Below, piece after piece: positions 26,156 through 56,465 of a DNA stretch of 64,000 nt. The stretch spans positions 1-64,000 of the forward strand of contig JAQUUX010000001.1 of the NCBI GenBank assembly GCA_028693705.1. The letters are read 5' to 3'. The position numbers and the translations under genes were made by a program. The stretch is from Lachnospiraceae bacterium (GTDB taxonomy: Bacteria; Bacillota; Clostridia; Lachnospirales; Lachnospiraceae). Every line of letters begins with the position of its first letter. Within the stretch, counting starts at the first letter, position 1. The notes beneath the pieces were generated by a model. That model was not told where the DNA came from. It made no database searches and saw only the letters and a program-made list of their open reading frames with translations.

Positions 26156-27793
26156 ATGATTCAGGCAAACAATGTAACCTTACGTATTGGCAAAAAAGCC
26201 TTATTCGAAGACGTAAACATTAAATTCACAGAGGGTAACTGTTATGGTCTTATCGGTGCCAACGGTGCCGGCAAATCCACCTTCTTAAAAATATTATCCG
26301 GTGTTCTGGAAACAACTAATGGTGACATCAGCATTACCCCCGGACAGCGTTTATCCGTACTGGAACAGGATCATTTCAAATATGATGAATATTCCGTTAT
26401 GGATACCGTTATCATGGGCAATGAACGATTATATAAAATCATGAAAGAAAAAGACGCGATCTATGCCAAAGAAGATTTTACCGATGAAGACGGCATCCGC
26501 GCCAGTGAACTGGAAGGTGAATTTGCAGAAATGGACGGCTGGAACGCAGAGTCCGATGCCGCTACCCTGTTAAACGGTTTGGGTGTGGATACAGAATTTC
26601 ACTATAATTCCATGAAAGACCTGGATGGTAGTTTAAAAGTCAAAGTCCTGCTTGCAAAAGCACTGTTTGGTAATCCTGATATCCTGCTCTTAGATGAGCC
26701 TACCAACCATTTGGATCTGGATGCTATTGCATGGCTGGAAGAATTCTTGATTAACTTTGAAAATACTGTCATCGTCGTATCCCATGACCGTTATTTCTTA
26801 AACAAGGTATGTACCCACACCGCTGATATTGATTATGGCAAGATCCAGTTATATGCCGGAAACTATGATTTCTGGTATGAATCCAGCCAGCTGATCCAGA
26901 AACAGCGTAAAGAAGCAAATAAAAAGAAGGAAGAGCAGATCAAGGAATTACAGGAATTCATCTCCCGCTTTGCAGCTAATGCAAGTAAGTCCAAGCAGGC
27001 AACTTCCCGTAAAAAAGCACTTGAAAAAATCGAACTGGATGACATCCGTCCTTCCAGCCGTAAATATCCTTATATTGATTTCCGTCCGGAACGTGAAATT
27101 GGTAACGAAGTGTTATCCGTGGAAGGTATCTCTAAAACCGTCAATGGTGAAAAGGTTCTGGACAACATCTCCTTCATCGTAAATCATGACGACAAGATTG
27201 CATTTGTCGGTGGCAACGAATTAGCAAAAACCACCTTATTCCAGATTCTCGCCGGAGAATTAGAACCGGACGAAGGAAGTTTTAAGTGGGGTGTTACTAC
27301 TTCACAGGCATACTTCCCTCGTGATAATACAAAAGAATTTGACAACGATTATACAATTGTAGATTGGCTTACAGGCTATTCCCCGGTAAAAGATGTGACC
27401 TATGTACGTGGTTTCCTGGGACGTATGCTCTTCGCCGGTGAAGACGGTGTAAAGAAGGTTAAGATTTTATCCGGTGGTGAAAAAGTACGTTGTCTTTTAT
27501 CCAAGATGATGATCAGTGGCGCCAACTGCCTGATCTTTGATGAACCTACCAACCATTTAGATATGGAATCCATCACTGCCCTGAATCAGGGTATGATCAA
27601 ATTCTCCGGTGTAGAACTCTTCTCCTGCCATGATCATCAGGTTGTACAGACTACAGCAAACCGTATCATGGAAATCCTGCCAAATGGCAAGATGATTGAT
27701 AAGATCACTACCTACGATGAATATCTCGAAAGTGATGAAATGGCCAGAAAACGTACTGTATATACCAATGCAGATACTGACGATAATGACTAA
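26156..27793 (+). CDS. ABC-F family ATPase, YbiT/YkpA type
   Basis: A 545-residue protein with two ATP-binding domains and no membrane segment, as in the ABC-F group that acts on ribosomes. Domain 1: Walker A GANGAGKSTF (about 37), Walker B LLLDEPTNHLDL. The interdomain linker (about 240-310) is charged and helical. Domain 2 has the altered P-loop GGNELAKTTLF, which is normal for the YbiT branch, and LIFDEPTNHLDM. AGAGGA lies ahead of the ATG. Close relatives are housekeeping factors (YbiT, YkpA) and not antibiotic-resistance ABC-F proteins; the latter cannot be fully excluded. The downstream PHP gene starts at its stop codon. Confidence 0.9.
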   Translation: MIQANNVTLRIGKKALFEDVNIKFTEGNCYGLIGANGAGKSTFLKILSGVLETTNGDISITPGQRLSVLEQDHFKYDEYSVMDTVIMGNERLYKIMKEKDAIYAKEDFTDEDGIRASELEGEFAEMDGWNAESDAATLLNGLGVDTEFHYNSMKDLDGSLKVKVLLAKALFGNPDILLLDEPTNHLDLDAIAWLEEFLINFENTVIVVSHDRYFLNKVCTHTADIDYGKIQLYAGNYDFWYESSQLIQKQRKEANKKKEEQIKELQEFISRFAANASKSKQATSRKKALEKIELDDIRPSSRKYPYIDFRPEREIGNEVLSVEGISKTVNGEKVLDNISFIVNHDDKIAFVGGNELAKTTLFQILAGELEPDEGSFKWGVTTSQAYFPRDNTKEFDNDYTIVDWLTGYSPVKDVTYVRGFLGRMLFAGEDGVKKVKILSGGEKVRCLLSKMMISGANCLIFDEPTNHLDMESITALNQGMIKFSGVELFSCHDHQVVQTTANRIMEILPNGKMIDKITTYDEYLESDEMARKRTVYTNADTDDND

Positions 27794-27797
27794 AAAT

Positions 27798-28658
27798 ATG
27801 AAAATAGTAGATTTACATGTTCATTCCAACCGTTCTGACGGGAGTATGACTCCCACAGAACTGGTATATTATGCAAAAGAAAAAGGCTTAAGTTCTTTCG
27901 CTCTCACAGACCATGACTGTGTAGAAGGTATTGATGAAGCCTTTGATGCTGCAAAAAGGCTGAAAGAAGAAACCGGCTATGATCTTGAAGTTATCCCGGG
28001 TATGGAATTCTCTACCGATTATCTGGGAAGTGATGTTCACATCGTGGCTCTGGATATTGATTACCATTCTGACACCTTTGTAAACAATATTTCCCGTTTC
28101 CTGGATTCCAGATCACTCAGGAACGAAAAAATGTGTGAAAAACTAAGAGAACGCGGTATAGACATTTCCATGGAACAACTAACCGATGATTTTCCCGATG
28201 CAGTAATTACCAGAGCTCATTTCGGAAAATACCTGTATCAAAAAGGCTACTGCTTAAGCGTTTCCGATGCGTTCTCCCAATATATCGGAGACCACGCGCC
28301 CTGTTTTGTCAGTCGTGAAAAGGTAACACCCAAGCAGGCAGTAAAACTAACCCGCCTGTGTGGCGGTATCCCTATACTGGCTCATCCTCTCCTCTATGGC
28401 TTCAGTAAGGAAAAGCTGGACACACTGACCGCAGACTTGACAGAGTCCGGCCTGCTTGGATTAGAATGCCTGTACAGTTCCTATACTTTAGCTGATGAAC
28501 ATAATATGCGTAAATTAGCCGCCAAATACGATCTAGCCCCCAGCGGTGGATCCGACTTCCATGGAACCACAAAACCCGGACTGGATATGGCCACCGGGTA
28601 TGGAAAGCTGTTTATTCCTTACGAGATTCTGGAGCATTTGCGGCAAAAACTGCTTTAA
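27798..28658 (+). CDS. PHP-domain phosphoesterase
   Basis: A 286-residue PHP-family metal-dependent phosphoesterase. The metal-site motifs are in order: DLHVHSNRSDG, ALTDHD, PGMEFS, ILAHPLLY and GSDFHG. Relatives include 3',5'-nucleoside bisphosphate phosphatase and RNase AM (YciV). The ATG at 27798 (MKIVDLHVH) is chosen; an ATG 12 bases earlier overlaps the ABC-F stop by 8 bases and neither has a strong ribosome site, so translation is probably coupled to the ABC-F gene. Its TAA is the first base triplet of the palindrome that opens the noncoding element. Confidence 0.88.
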   Translation: MKIVDLHVHSNRSDGSMTPTELVYYAKEKGLSSFALTDHDCVEGIDEAFDAAKRLKEETGYDLEVIPGMEFSTDYLGSDVHIVALDIDYHSDTFVNNISRFLDSRSLRNEKMCEKLRERGIDISMEQLTDDFPDAVITRAHFGKYLYQKGYCLSVSDAFSQYIGDHAPCFVSREKVTPKQAVKLTRLCGGIPILAHPLLYGFSKEKLDTLTADLTESGLLGLECLYSSYTLADEHNMRKLAAKYDLAPSGGSDFHGTTKPGLDMATGYGKLFIPYEILEHLRQKLL

Positions 28659-28659
28659 A

Positions 28660-28969
28660 CTGCAGTTTAGCAACTTGCAAATACTAATTATAACGAGACG
28701 GCAATGGTGTGGGTGTGTATCCTTCCATTGCCGCTCACACGTATAAAAGCCACTAAATCATTCCATTTAGATTGCAGTTGCTTACGCTAACGGAACCAAT
28801 CGCCATCCTGGCTCTGAGGTTCCTTTCCGGGCATCCTTGCCCGGAATAGCTGTGGTAACAGCTGGAATGATTAAGTGGCTTTAATACATGTTCACAGGCA
28901 CTGAAAGGATACATACCCGCACCACTGCCTGTTCGTTACTATTCATATCTCCAAGTTGCTAATCTGCAG
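28660..28969 (+). repeat. Element copy 1, foldback 1 (conserved core)
   Basis: Nested helices, outside to inside: 28660-28677 with 28952-28969 (18 bp, one mismatch); 28700-28722 with 28907-28929 (23 bp, two G-U pairs and one A-C on the plus strand); 28746-28765 with 28863-28882 (20 bp, one mismatch). At the tip are three hairpins: GGAACC/GGTTCC (28792-28823), TTCCGGGCA/TGCCCGGAA with a TCCT loop (28825-28846), and AGCTGT/ACAGCT with a GGTA loop (28848-28863). A local hairpin GGCAATGG/CCATTGCC (28700-28732) competes with the second helix. The tip is nearly identical in copy 2. Confidence 0.85.
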
Positions 28970-29117
28970 TTGACCTGGTCTGTAGCAAGGCTCAGATTAC
29001 GGCAATTAGATGTTTCTACAACCGCCCTAGGTTGATGCCAGGTGTCGCAAAGACACTAGTTACCGCAAGGAAATAATTGCAATAGTCTGGTCTTGGCTAC
29101 AGACCGGGCAACTGCAG
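28964..29117 (+). repeat. Element copy 1, foldback 2
   Basis: Begins AATCTGCAGTT and ends AACTGCAGATT, which are reverse complements. Next to them GGTCTGTAGC (28977-28986) pairs with GCTACAGACC (29096-29105). The right half, read on the minus strand, matches foldback 2 of copy 2 read on the plus strand, so this module is inverted between the copies. Confidence 0.8.
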
Positions 29118-29306
29118 ATTAAATTGGAATAAAGTACAAAGAATGGGACGGCTATATCACTCTGAGAAGCACTTGAACCCCGTCGGCATTTGGCTTGCGT
29201 AATTTGCAAGCCTATGTGCCGCTACGGGGTTCATGTAGCGAAAGCGCGCTTCGATGAGTGATATAGTCGTCCCATTCGGTATACTTAAATCCAATTTAAC
29301 CTGCAG
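29112..29306 (+). repeat. Element copy 1, foldback 3
   Basis: Outer arms of about 51 bases (29112-29162 and 29256-29306) pair with few mismatches. The tip holds three stacked helices: TGAACCCCGT/ACGGGGTTCA (29174-29183, 29224-29233), GGCA/TGCC (29185, 29217) and GGCTTGC/GCAAGCC (29192-29198, 29206-29212) with a 7-base loop. The helix junction has C on one side and GCT on the other. A GCGAAAGC hairpin follows near 29238. Confidence 0.85.
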
Positions 29307-29307
29307 C

Positions 29308-29571
29308 TTATCCTTCTACTATGAGATATCTTCCATCCCCAACTTCAAAAACTTCTGACGCTTCTAAAATACTCTCTTCGTCAGCATCCTCTACATCAAT
29401 GCCTTCTTCCTCAAAGTATTCCAGCACTTCTTTTACGGAATTCACTACAACTGCCATGCAGTCCTCTAAGAATTCTTCTGCTTCTGCTTCATTTTCTGCT
29501 ACCTTCTCTGAAAACAGCTGTCCCTGGTGTTTCAGAAAGCATGCAATTACTGCGTCATCATATTCGCCCAT
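29308..29571 (-). CDS. Small acidic protein of unknown function
   Basis: An 87-residue protein with about one third Glu and Asp, no signal peptide and no membrane segment. Predicted mostly helical: QLFSEKVAENEAEAEEFLEDCM, then VVVNSVKEVLEYFEEEGIDVED, and a short C-terminal beta end, VFEVGDGRYLIVEG. I do not recognise a domain. It lies 4 bases after maf and is probably cotranscribed with maf and ppk. The stop codon touches the noncoding element, so the 3' end of this mRNA probably carries foldback 3 in antisense. Confidence 0.75.
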   Translation of the reverse strand: MGEYDDAVIACFLKHQGQLFSEKVAENEAEAEEFLEDCMAVVVNSVKEVLEYFEEEGIDVEDADEESILEASEVFEVGDGRYLIVEG

Positions 29572-29575
29572 TTTT

Positions 29576-52000: not shown

Positions 52001-52429
52001 ATGTTAAATGTAGGAAAAATTGAAGAAGGATTCGTCCTGGATCATATTAAAGCAGGCGCAAGCCTTACCATATACCATCAGTTAGGTTTAGACAAACTCG
52101 ACTGTACCGTTGCCATCATCAAAAATGCCCGCAGTAACAAGATGGGCCGAAAAGATATTTTAAAAGTAGAATGTGACATCGACACCCTGGACCTGGATAT
52201 CTTAGCATTCATCGACCACAACATTACCGTTAATGTAATCAAAAACGGAGAAATTGTTCGCAAAAAAGATCTGGTAATGCCAAAAGAAATTGTAAATATC
52301 CTGAAATGCAAAAATCCCCGCTGTATTACTTCTATTGAACAGGAATTATCGCATATTTTCGTGTTGTCCAGCGATGGAGAGTCTTATCATTGCAAGTATT
52401 GTGAGGAGAAGTACGGAAAGCTTATGTAG
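52001..52429 (+). CDS. pyrI: Aspartate carbamoyltransferase regulatory subunit
   Basis: A 142-residue regulatory chain. The N-terminal nucleotide-binding domain (about 1-95) carries GFVLDHIKAGASLTIYHQLGL. The C-terminal zinc domain has four Cys ligands at 103, 108, 131 and 134 (CKNPRC ... CKYC). It binds CTP or ATP effectors and links catalytic trimers. The stop codon at 52427-52429 is followed 2 bases later by the palindrome opening the second noncoding element. Confidence 0.96.
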   Translation: MLNVGKIEEGFVLDHIKAGASLTIYHQLGLDKLDCTVAIIKNARSNKMGRKDILKVECDIDTLDLDILAFIDHNITVNVIKNGEIVRKKDLVMPKEIVNILKCKNPRCITSIEQELSHIFVLSSDGESYHCKYCEEKYGKLM

Positions 52430-52435
52430 GTTAAA

Positions 52436-52749
52436 CTGCAGTTTAGCAACTTAAAAAATAATGTTTATAATGAGACGGCAATGGTGTGGGTGTGTATCCT
52501 TCCATTGCCGCTCACACGTATAAAAGCCACTAAATCATTCCATTTAGATTGCAGCTACTTACGCTAACGGAACCAATCGCCATCCTGGCTCTGAGGTTCC
52601 TTTCCGGGCATCCTTGCCCGGAATAGCTGTGGTAACAGTTGGAATGATTAAGTGGCTTTAATACATGTTCACAGGCAATAGAAGAATACACACCCGCATC
52701 ACTGCCTGTTCGTTACATTCATTATTCTTTTCAAGTTGCCAATCTGCAG
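52436..52749 (+). repeat. Element copy 2, foldback 1
   Basis: Same nested plan as copy 1. The apical region is almost identical. Differences fall mostly in arms and keep pairing on the plus strand; for example AGCTGT/ACAGCT has become AGCTGT/ACAGTT, a G-U pair. The arm inside the outer helix changed on both sides, AACTTAAAAAATAATG with CATTATTCTTTTCAAGTT, and still pairs. Confidence 0.8.
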
Positions 52750-52839
52750 TTAACCCAGTCTGTAGCCAAGGCCAGACTATTGCAACTATTCATTTGCCGT
52801 AACTGGGGTCTATGCATCACCGGGCATCATAAACTGCAG
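52744..52839 (+). repeat. Element copy 2, foldback 2 (inverted relative to copy 1)
   Basis: Bounded by AATCTGCAGTT and AACTGCAGATT. Its sequence from 52756, GTCTGTAGCCAAGGCCAGAC and onward through GTAACTGGGGTC to CCGGGCATC, aligns with the reverse complement of 29034-29106 in copy 1. About 70 bases of copy 1 foldback 2 are missing. Confidence 0.8.
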
Positions 52840-53044
52840 ATTGAAGGAAATACAGATTGCCGTAAAACGAGGTTCAGCCGTGTATCGTATGCGAACAAGC
52901 ACTGTAAACACGTCTGTACTTAGTTCGCGTCTTATGCGAACTTATGTACAGCTACGTGTTTACCGTAGTGAAAACGGGCTTGTGAGCATATGATACACGG
53001 CTGAACCGTCCCTTTACATCAATCCTTATTTCTTTAACCTTCAG
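52834..53044 (+). repeat. Element copy 2, foldback 3
   Basis: Outer arms pair through GGTTCAGCCGTGTATC with GATACACGGCTGAACC. Tip helices: GTAAACACGT/ACGTGTTTAC (52904-52913, 52954-52963), TGTAC/GTACA (52915-52919, 52946-52950), GTTCGC/GCGAAC (52923-52928, 52936-52941) with a 7-base loop. The junction is again C opposite GCT, and GTGAAAAC follows where copy 1 has GCGAAAGC. Confidence 0.85.
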
Positions 53045-53045
53045 T

Positions 53046-53855
53046 TTACTTCTCTTTGGAGAACAGTATCCTATCATTATCCAACTGCGCTCCCACATTT
53101 TCCTTAAACTTCGTCAGCAGATCATCTACTGTCATCTTTGTTCTTTCTTCTCCATAGATATCCGATACGATCCTTCCGGAATCCATCATCAGTGTTCTGT
53201 TTCCCAGTTCCAGTGCCTGGTGCATGTTATGGGTTACCATAAGGCAGGTAATGCCTCGTTCTGCAATGATATCCTTAGTCAGTTTCAGAACTTTTTCAGC
53301 CGTTGCAGGATCCAATGCTGCGGTATGTTCATCCAGTAACAGGATCTTTGGCGTTACCATAGTTGCCATGAGAAGTGTCAGTGCCTGTCTCTGACCTCCG
53401 GATAATAATCCAACCGGCTGTTTTAACCGGTCTTCCAGCCCCATATCCAATAGTGCCAGCTGTTCTCTGAACTTTTCCTTATCCTTCTTGGACAAACGGC
53501 TGAAGAACTGATGACTCTTTGTTGATGCTCTAAGGTATGCCAGGGTAAGATTTTCTTCTATCGTCATATGCGGAGCAGTTCCCAGTAATGGATCCTGGAA
53601 TAAGTGTCCGATCATTTTGCTTCGTTTATATTCCGGTACATAGGTGATATTCTCGTCATCCAGGATAATATCTCCTTCATCTACATAAAAGGAGCCGGTA
53701 ATAGCATTAAACATAGTGGATTTTCCTGCACCATTACTACCGATAATGGTTGCAAAATCCCCATTATCCAAATGAAGATTTACGTGACTCAAAGCAGATT
53801 TTTCATTTACTGTACCCGGATTAAAGGTCTTGGATATATTTTTTAATTCTAACAT
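53046..53855 (-). CDS. ABC transporter ATP-binding protein, probably tryptophan uptake
   Basis: A 269-residue ATPase with Walker A IIGSNGAGKSTMFNAI, a Q-loop, signature LLSGGQRQALTLLMATM and Walker B ILLLDEHTAALDPATAEK. It belongs to the type that pairs with a LivH-like permease and a PF04392 binding protein. It ends the three-gene unit under a Trp T-box, so tryptophan is the likely substrate. The stop codon abuts the noncoding element. Confidence 0.9.
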   Translation of the reverse strand: MLELKNISKTFNPGTVNEKSALSHVNLHLDNGDFATIIGSNGAGKSTMFNAITGSFYVDEGDIILDDENITYVPEYKRSKMIGHLFQDPLLGTAPHMTIEENLTLAYLRASTKSHQFFSRLSKKDKEKFREQLALLDMGLEDRLKQPVGLLSGGQRQALTLLMATMVTPKILLLDEHTAALDPATAEKVLKLTKDIIAERGITCLMVTHNMHQALELGNRTLMMDSGRIVSDIYGEERTKMTVDDLLTKFKENVGAQLDNDRILFSKEK

Positions 53856-54954: not shown

Positions 54955-56064
54955 TTACTCAAATTCTTCTGCAGTTGTGATCTCAACAACATCTGAGCAG
55001 GAATCCTTAAACATACTGTAATCCAGCCCCAATGCAGTTGCTGTCTCTGTGTTAACAGTTGCAATACCATTATCCTGTGTCTGAATAGCTGTAGCCGCTG
55101 GATCTGCACCATTTACAAGAATATCAACTACCATATCTGCTGTCAAAGTACCAAGTTCTGCATAATTTACACCATATCCCATAAATGCACCATTAAGTGC
55201 AAAGGAATCAGCACCACAATACTGTGGAATACCGGCTTCAACGAATTTCTCATAAATGGAAAGCTGAGCTTTCATAACTGTATTATCCTGTGGTGTAAAG
55301 GTTGCATCCACGCCTTCAGCGATAAGTGCATCTGCTGCCATGGAAATTTCATCATTAGTGGTACCGGTTTTCTCTACTACTTCAATACCGTTTGCTTCAC
55401 AGAATGCTTTTGCTTCTGCAATTGCTGCTGTGGAAGAATCCTGACCTTTGTCATATAACAATCCTAATTTCTTGGTATCAGGGTTAACGCCCATCATCAG
55501 ATTCATGATTGCTGTAGTATCCAGTGCATCACTGGTTCCTGTAATGTTTGAGCCGGGAGCTTCCATAGATTCTGCCAGACCTGCTCCAACCGGATCAGAT
55601 ACTGCTGAGAATACTACAGGAATCTGATTATCTTCTGTTGCTGCCTGCATAATACATGCGGTAGGTGTTGCAATTGGTACAATAATATCTACTTCATCTG
55701 CAATTAAGTCAGCTGCAATCTGATTTAATACAGTGGAGTCAGCCTGACCATTCTTGGAATAATCTGCATAATCAAAAGTTACGTTTAATTCAGCACCTTT
55801 AGCATCTAACTCTGTCTGAATAGCTTCCTGAATCTGATTTAAAGAAGCATCATCCACATACTGTACAATGCCAACCTTATAAGTTGTGCCTGCTGCACCG
55901 GCTGCTTCTGTTCCTGTCTCTGTACCGGCCGCTTCTGTTGTAGCTGCCTCTGTCTGCGCTGTAGTTTCTGCGCTGCCTGCTGTCTCTGCGCTGCTGCCGC
56001 ATCCTGTCATCACCATTGCTGTCATTGCTGCTGTTAAAACCATTGCCATCATTTTCTTTTTCAT
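54955..56064 (-). CDS. trpX: ABC substrate-binding lipoprotein (PF04392), probably tryptophan
   Basis: A 369-residue lipoprotein. Lipobox MVMTGC, Cys at 22, then a Thr/Glu/Ala-rich linker to about 60. The PF04392 domain begins TYKVGIVQYVDDASLNQIQEAIQ and includes DIIVPIATPTACIMQAA, PVVFSAVSDPVGAGL and FTPQDNTVMKAQLSIYEKF. The ATG at 56064 has AAGGAGG upstream; a longer frame runs through the T-box and is rejected. The T-box reads tryptophan, so the TrpX assignment follows from regulation and family. Confidence 0.88.
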   Translation of the reverse strand: MKKKMMAMVLTAAMTAMVMTGCGSSAETAGSAETTAQTEAATTEAAGTETGTEAAGAAGTTYKVGIVQYVDDASLNQIQEAIQTELDAKGAELNVTFDYADYSKNGQADSTVLNQIAADLIADEVDIIVPIATPTACIMQAATEDNQIPVVFSAVSDPVGAGLAESMEAPGSNITGTSDALDTTAIMNLMMGVNPDTKKLGLLYDKGQDSSTAAIAEAKAFCEANGIEVVEKTGTTNDEISMAADALIAEGVDATFTPQDNTVMKAQLSIYEKFVEAGIPQYCGADSFALNGAFMGYGVNYAELGTLTADMVVDILVNGADPAATAIQTQDNGIATVNTETATALGLDYSMFKDSCSDVVEITTAEEFE

Positions 56065-56173
56065 GTTTATAATCCTCCTTGTTTTGCGAAGCAAAATCCG
56101 AGTCTCCAGACGAGGAGAGGATTTGCCGCCTTTTTTTGTTTGAATTGAAAACAATAAAAAGATTCGAAACAAT

Positions 56174-56465
56174 AAAAAAACCGTCTCAGAACATCTTTCG
56201 ATGCTTGAGACGGTAATAAACATTATTATGTCATTATCGCGGTACCACTCAAATTGATTCCAAAGGAATCCACTCTGTCATGTACTACATACACGCCGGA
56301 TTGATAACGGGTCCGTACCCGCCAGCTCCTACTATCATCTTCAGGCCAGCCTCAAAAGTCCATTCAACATTATTCCACTGTACTGCATTCCACCAGCCGC
56401 AGCTCTCTGAACAGCTTCACCAATGTCTACTACTCTTTCTCATCGGTTTATCTTTTCAATTCATA
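56174..56465 (-). promoter_or_regulatory. T-box riboswitch, specifier UGG (tryptophan)
   Basis: Read on the minus strand. An AGAGA box lies near 56404-56408. The specifier loop reads GAATGGAC, with codon TGG (Trp) at 56360-56362. The T-box sequence GAGTGGTACCGCG is at 56238-56250. The terminator hairpin ACCGTCTCA/TGAGACGGT (56180-56214) is followed by TTTTTTT. All parts are in order. Uncharged tRNA-Trp should open the hairpin and allow the importer to be made. Confidence 0.95.

Follow-up and report, generated by a model that had tools for sequence, protein, structure and literature searches.

What are the two intergenic intervals in the 64,000-nt window, the whole stretch of Lachnospiraceae DNA analysed here, that are built from foldbacks sharing CTGCAG joints? 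A sequence-only reading had proposed a two-copy element, either a modular foldback mobile element or a large structured RNA. The composite and its modules are located as follows.

28656..29310, unstranded: composite copy 1, of the order A-B-C; it runs from TAAA followed by CTGCAG to CTGCAG followed by C-TTA, with the stop codon of a convergent gene on either side
28660..28969, unstranded: module A of copy 1, a foldback of about 310 bp, CTGCAGTTTAGCAACTTG...CAAGTTGCTAATCTGCAG
28731..28897, minus strand: TwoAYGGAY RNA motif (RF01731) at the apex of module A, copy 1; cmscan 99.6 bits, gathering score 43
28964..29117, unstranded: module B of copy 1, 148 bp joint to joint
29112..29306, unstranded: module C foldback of copy 1, arms of 59 nt, 83% complementary
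29153..29265, minus strand: R1 hairpin motif in module C, copy 1; 119.9 bits, its core being among the 12 sequences that seeded the model
52432..53048, unstranded: composite copy 2, of the order A-b-D, which is the most frequent in the genome
52436..52749, unstranded: module A of copy 2, 92% identical to that of copy 1
52508..52674, minus strand: TwoAYGGAY RNA motif (RF01731) of copy 2; cmscan 99.6 bits
52744..52839, unstranded: module b of copy 2, a 90-bp middle module of weak structure
52834..53044, unstranded: module D foldback of copy 2
52883..52995, minus strand: R1 hairpin motif in module D, copy 2; 122.2 bits, likewise among the 12 seeds of the model

Modules of about 90–330 bp (A, b/B, C, D) are joined at common CTGYAG joints, and the joints listed by the sequence-only reading are all in place, at 28660, 28964, 29112 and 29301 in copy 1 and at 52436, 52744 and 52834 in copy 2, whose last joint, at 53039, reads CTTCAG. 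The outer ends of the composite are TAAACTGCAG...CTGCAGTTTA. Long imperfect arms lie on both sides of modules A, C and D and remain paired despite sequence differences between copies; previously put at up to 51 bases, they reach 59 nt at 83% in module C of copy 1 (29112-29170/29248-29306) and 75 nt at 80% in its module A (28658-28732/28897-28971). The description of every module as a foldback holds for A, B, C and D and fails for module b of copy 2, in whose 90 bp no arm of at least 14 nt, and hence no long foldback, was found. Unlike b, the 148-bp module B of copy 1 is a foldback, and its sequence looks like a fusion between the left half of b and b in inverted orientation. No coding frame was found in the composite, in line with the earlier account, and no intrinsic terminator signal.

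The element is not restricted to two copies. BLAST with copy 1 as query, a check that the earlier account had called for, returned dozens of dispersed matches in the 3.12-Mb source genome (G000), and module C alone as query gave further matches beyond these. The terminal motif TAAACTGYAGTTTA, with at most one mismatch, occurs 84 and 76 times on the two genome strands against 2 and 3 times for the reversed pattern, a count that is not due to chance. There are 80-odd end or joint motifs, at least 36 copies could be read at both ends, at least 29 copies in the genome are of A type, and the composite repeat is present about 40 times or more in this gut bacterium. The 36 copies with both ends read comprise the combinations A..C, A..D, A..E, rC..D, rD..C and rD..E, with the module orders A-b-D, A-B-C, rC-b-D, rD-rb-C and rD..E, and some composite copies (L052, L071) lack the inner part of one module. 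Ends are fixed while the copies are dispersed in unrelated flanks; with their TAAACTGYAG ends they are short, non-coding and bounded by terminal inverted repeats in several copies, as MITEs are, and their palindromic extragenic modules stand in inverted pairs or mosaics, as in REP/BIME elements. One further composite (L073, G000:C159) is interrupted by an unrelated TTTTGGTATATA-rich insertion. A search for an autonomous element found no pair of ends 1–4 kb apart among the matches listed for the genome. Apart from a core match of about 50 bp in two genomes, no relatives of the composite were found in the other 396 Lachnospiraceae genomes, and none in the plasmids and phages searched.

Modules C, D and E have in common an inner hairpin with conserved strips, from which we built the model R1 on an alignment of 12 sequences. 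Its consensus is approximately CACGCTYTCGCTC - stem - CGTAGCGGTACATAAG - stem-loop - CTAAGTACCGACG - stem; the inner stem bears a GTAG-like tetranucleotide at its foot. Among 43 distinct sequences, both partners vary in 36 of the 38 pairs, and the covariation score reaches 0.77, compared with at most 0.10 when the partners are slid; 94% of cells are paired, a percentage that is biased in this direction because the alignment was fitted to the model, although the excess over the slid versions is still large. R1 corresponds to no family in Rfam 15. It was found in 62 of 150 Lachnospiraceae genomes, with at least 25 occurrences per genome in several, and at 19 distinct sites in 459 kb of the source genome. 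G-U pairs make up 1.5% of the folded pairs on the modelled strand and 5.8% on the other, versus 12.6% in shuffles, and this low content hints, without being more than suggestive, that the palindrome is maintained by DNA or by both strands. Inverted R1 pairs of the same inward orientation occur in several lineages, and G308 (L239), from a second genus, has a composite that is bounded by CTGTAG...GGCAG and carries two R1 hairpins. In several genomes the common core is surrounded by arms that differ from copy to copy, a pattern that a model of simple transposition does not explain. Neither the exact R1 pattern nor, in a protein scan, a Maf match was found in viral contigs. Elsewhere, R1 hairpins form tandem arrays with a period of about 164–187 bp (L233, L234 and L235 of G109), and a family of R1 foldbacks with ends near TTGCGAAACT (L261-L265 and L241 of G056) has some flanks that extend the palindrome, as if the element had been inserted into hairpins already present.

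Movement could be observed among the R1 relatives of other genera. G073 contains scores of 216-bp palindromes with an R1 core and the ends GTAACAGTTCAGCCG...CGGCTGAACTGTTAC in unrelated flanks, the end motif giving 164 matches against 0 in the control. An 8-bp target-site duplication, matching at six or more of eight positions, borders 14 of 21 copies, with a mean flank identity of 0.71 at k=8 compared with 0.24–0.37 at other k, and likewise all 9 of 9 further copies, including core-deleted derivatives of 56–128 bp, so that the total amounts to 23 of 30 copies, with a perfect duplication in 12. In these derivatives of the 216-bp palindrome (L306-L312, 56–128 bp), the 8-bp duplications still flank an element without its core. 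The comparison of empty and filled sites suggested by the sequence-only reading, run here on R1 relatives, yielded a clean pair: between L103 and L111, which are 94–95% identical, an R1(+)-linker-R1(-) composite constitutes a clean insertion of about 488 bp in L103 that is missing from L111 and from the additional relatives inspected. Taken together, the G073 duplications and the L103/L111 pair show that R1 foldbacks move. For the CTGCAG composite, no target-site duplication beyond noise was found under many end definitions; we infer movement of this family from its dispersal, and the evidence for mobility comes from the R1 relatives in other genera. The earlier suggestion of a modular foldback mobile element is borne out by the many dispersed copies, the variable module combinations and the relatives of C and D with duplications. 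That the arms are inverted copies of flanking DNA could be rejected, since the arms in L103 do not occur in the empty site of L111, and the PHP/DUF1292 junction of G003 was unusable as an empty site because another gene intervenes.

Such elements could also be ordinary MITEs, that is, deletion derivatives of IS elements, IS66-like for example in G073, whose terminal repeats are recognised and whose R1 core travels as a passenger. The G073 family resembles bacterial MITEs in its short palindrome, its fixed GTAACAGTTCAGCCG ends, its 8-bp duplication and its core-less 56–128-bp derivatives, which keep the duplication; GTAA ends with 8-bp target-site duplications are moreover reminiscent of IS66. 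However, the IS66 transposase (PF03050) is absent from the source genome and none was reported for G073, and over 150 genomes R1 is not associated with IS66 (p=0.86). What the families have in common is the core, not the ends, the centre being conserved across families, while the CTGCAG composite has three modules and no target-site duplication. We regard an origin as ordinary MITEs as possible but rather unlikely, and favour a mobile mosaic of foldbacks with conserved apices.

Where the copies have settled can be read from the neighbouring genes, which in the window are the following.

27696..28658, plus strand: left neighbour of copy 1, presumably a PHP-domain-like protein, its stop codon TAA ending one base before CTGCAG
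29308..29572, minus strand: right neighbour of copy 1, a small acidic protein which we take to be DUF1292-like, its stop codon one base from the last CTGCAG
52001..52429, plus strand: left neighbour of copy 2, presumably PyrI-like (aspartate carbamoyltransferase regulatory chain)
53046..53855, minus strand: right neighbour of copy 2, which we take to be an ABC transporter ATP-binding protein

The window also holds a T-box leader (56203-56452, minus strand, 117.9 bits) upstream of an ABC-type substrate-binding gene (54955-56223). In 459 kb of the source genome (L286-L305 plus the window, genes called with a simple gene caller of our own), 9 of 19 element-bearing intergenic regions are convergent, compared with 27 of 397 others (Fisher p=5e-6). 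Open frames terminate within 220 bp on each side of 31 of 36 copies, in most cases no more than 10 bp from the element and most often with a TAA one base ahead of CTGCAG on both sides; for some copies, only one of the sides adjoins a gene end. The composite occupies stop-codon junctions, which belong mainly to convergent genes. The TAAACTGYAGTTTA ends provide stop codons in at least two frames, TAAACTGYAG being able to supply TAA or TAG, and the neighbouring proteins, judged by eye, are without gross truncation. Within the same 459 kb, overlaps or distances below 10 bp are frequent among convergent gene pairs: of the 27 unoccupied convergent gaps, 11 measure at most 9 bp. In the relative L181, a gap of 5 bp separates pyrI from the ABC gene at their junction. 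Insertion into such narrow junctions consequently requires no loss of DNA, which weakens the idea that insertion removed original intergenic sequence.

The same location raises the question whether these are bidirectional 3'-end or insulation elements that are kept between convergent genes, transposition being historical only. Convergent genes flank roughly half of the element sites, often with both stop codons adjoining the ends, and the arms are still paired though the copies differ. Against a function of this kind, however, stand the lack of an intrinsic terminator signal in the composite, the many tight convergent junctions that manage without an element, and the copies that adjoin a gene end at just one of their sides. 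We consider retention for this purpose conceivable, if somewhat improbable, and give preference to a mobile element whose retention is favoured at such junctions.

At its apex, module A carries a named RNA, which had been missed before: RF01731, TwoAYGGAY, matches both copies on the minus strand. The proposed Rfam comparison thus gave a family for module A and for no other part, since modules b, B, C and D have no Rfam match above the gathering score; the composite and the modules other than A remain undescribed within the sources searched. With TwoAYGGAY in A and a strongly covarying hairpin in C and D, the proposal of a large structured RNA was partly right. The apex fits the full RF01731 model well over the gathering score, yet Rfam holds a motif of about 168 nt classed as cis-regulatory, whereas here it forms the apex of a module of about 310 bp within a dispersed composite. 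Weinberg et al. (2010) described TwoAYGGAY as a probable RNA that is probably not cis-regulatory (PMC2864571), and a paper of 2014 proposed it as a CsrA-binding RNA (PMC4333381); none of the literature searched presents it as a component of a dispersed repeat. Inverted pairs of TwoAYGGAY hairpins about 300–650 bp apart, with copy-specific arms, were seen in three further genomes (L188-L194; G085, G008, G115). Among the 150 Lachnospiraceae genomes, CsrA is encoded in 20 of 20 TwoAYGGAY-positive genomes compared with 80 of 150 overall (p=1e-6) and in 45 of 62 R1-positive genomes (p=1e-4), tests that ignore phylogeny, so that shared ancestry may contribute. The co-occurrence with TwoAYGGAY would be fitting for the published CsrA-binding idea, and some copies contain GAACATGGATGTTC and GGGCATGGATGCCC hairpins with a GGA loop.

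These observations, together with the strong covariation, could be taken to mean that the elements are host regulatory RNAs, in which AYGGAY-loop hairpins in 3'-UTRs titrate CsrA, R1 binds another protein or ligand, and copies were spread by selection rather than selfishness. The R1 consensus, however, has no GGA loop, and 17 of the 62 R1-positive genomes are without CsrA; R1 foldbacks transpose with 8-bp duplications, their rare G-U pairs suggest that DNA or both strands matter, and the CsrA-bearing lineages may simply share ancestry. As an explanation of the whole element, host regulation therefore appears unlikely to us. A regulatory contribution via CsrA binding on one strand is possible and would be compatible with the mobile-element reading.

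Among known repeats, there is a close likeness to BIME/REP/REPIN elements, which are also extragenic, palindromic, of high copy number and found in inverted pairs, mosaic module orders and tandem arrays; here, in contrast, the units are far longer (about 90–330 bp versus a 20–40-bp palindrome), no Y1/RAYT transposase was found, one related family (G073) has duplications, and two of the apices hold large structured motifs. Like the composite, BOX elements of Streptococcus pneumoniae are intergenic and modular and form stem-loops; the composite differs in that the majority of its modules fold back on themselves and in that modules are probably swapped at CTGYAG joints. That a REP-associated tyrosine (Y1) transposase moves a REP/BIME-type element here is very improbable, in spite of the extragenic palindromes, inverted pairs, tandem arrays, mosaic organisation and GTAG-like tetranucleotide of R1, as the source genome has no Y1 (IS200-type) transposase (PF01797), R1 and Y1 are not associated over 150 genomes (p=0.62), the modules measure 90–330 bp instead of 20–40 bp, and the G073 copies have target-site duplications, which Y1 elements are not known to make.

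We propose, with reasonable confidence, that the two intervals are copies of a non-autonomous, mosaic, BIME-like mobile element of foldbacks, in which the apices and not the ends are conserved. Each foldback apex would carry a conserved hairpin, TwoAYGGAY in A and R1 in C and D, with arms and ends varying between families; a putative transposase or recombinase would move the composite in trans, and modules may be swapped at the shared palindromic CTGYAG joints. Retention would be favoured at tail-to-tail gene junctions, where copies probably survive since neither gene is harmed by an insertion between two stop codons. Each neighbouring transcript would gain a large 3' hairpin, whose GGA loops on one strand may bind CsrA. 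More speculatively, and in our estimation quite doubtful, there could be a class of mobile DNA hairpins in which the foldback apex, R1 or the reverse complement of TwoAYGGAY, is recognised as a structure by shared machinery, leaving arms and ends free and the families different in insertion mode (with 8-bp duplication, at stop-codon junctions, or into palindromes).

For TwoAYGGAY, a motif that has had no assigned function since 2010, these results provide a physical context, as the apex of probably mobile foldbacks at gene 3' ends in CsrA-encoding bacteria. R1, a hairpin motif with strong support and no Rfam entry, is present in two fifths of the sampled Lachnospiraceae genomes, often in tens of copies. 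Such dispersed copies may break assemblies; many contigs of G073 and G105 stop at R1 elements or close to them. A repeat that settles at convergent stop codons furthermore poses a testable question, namely how target choice and 3'-end function combine.
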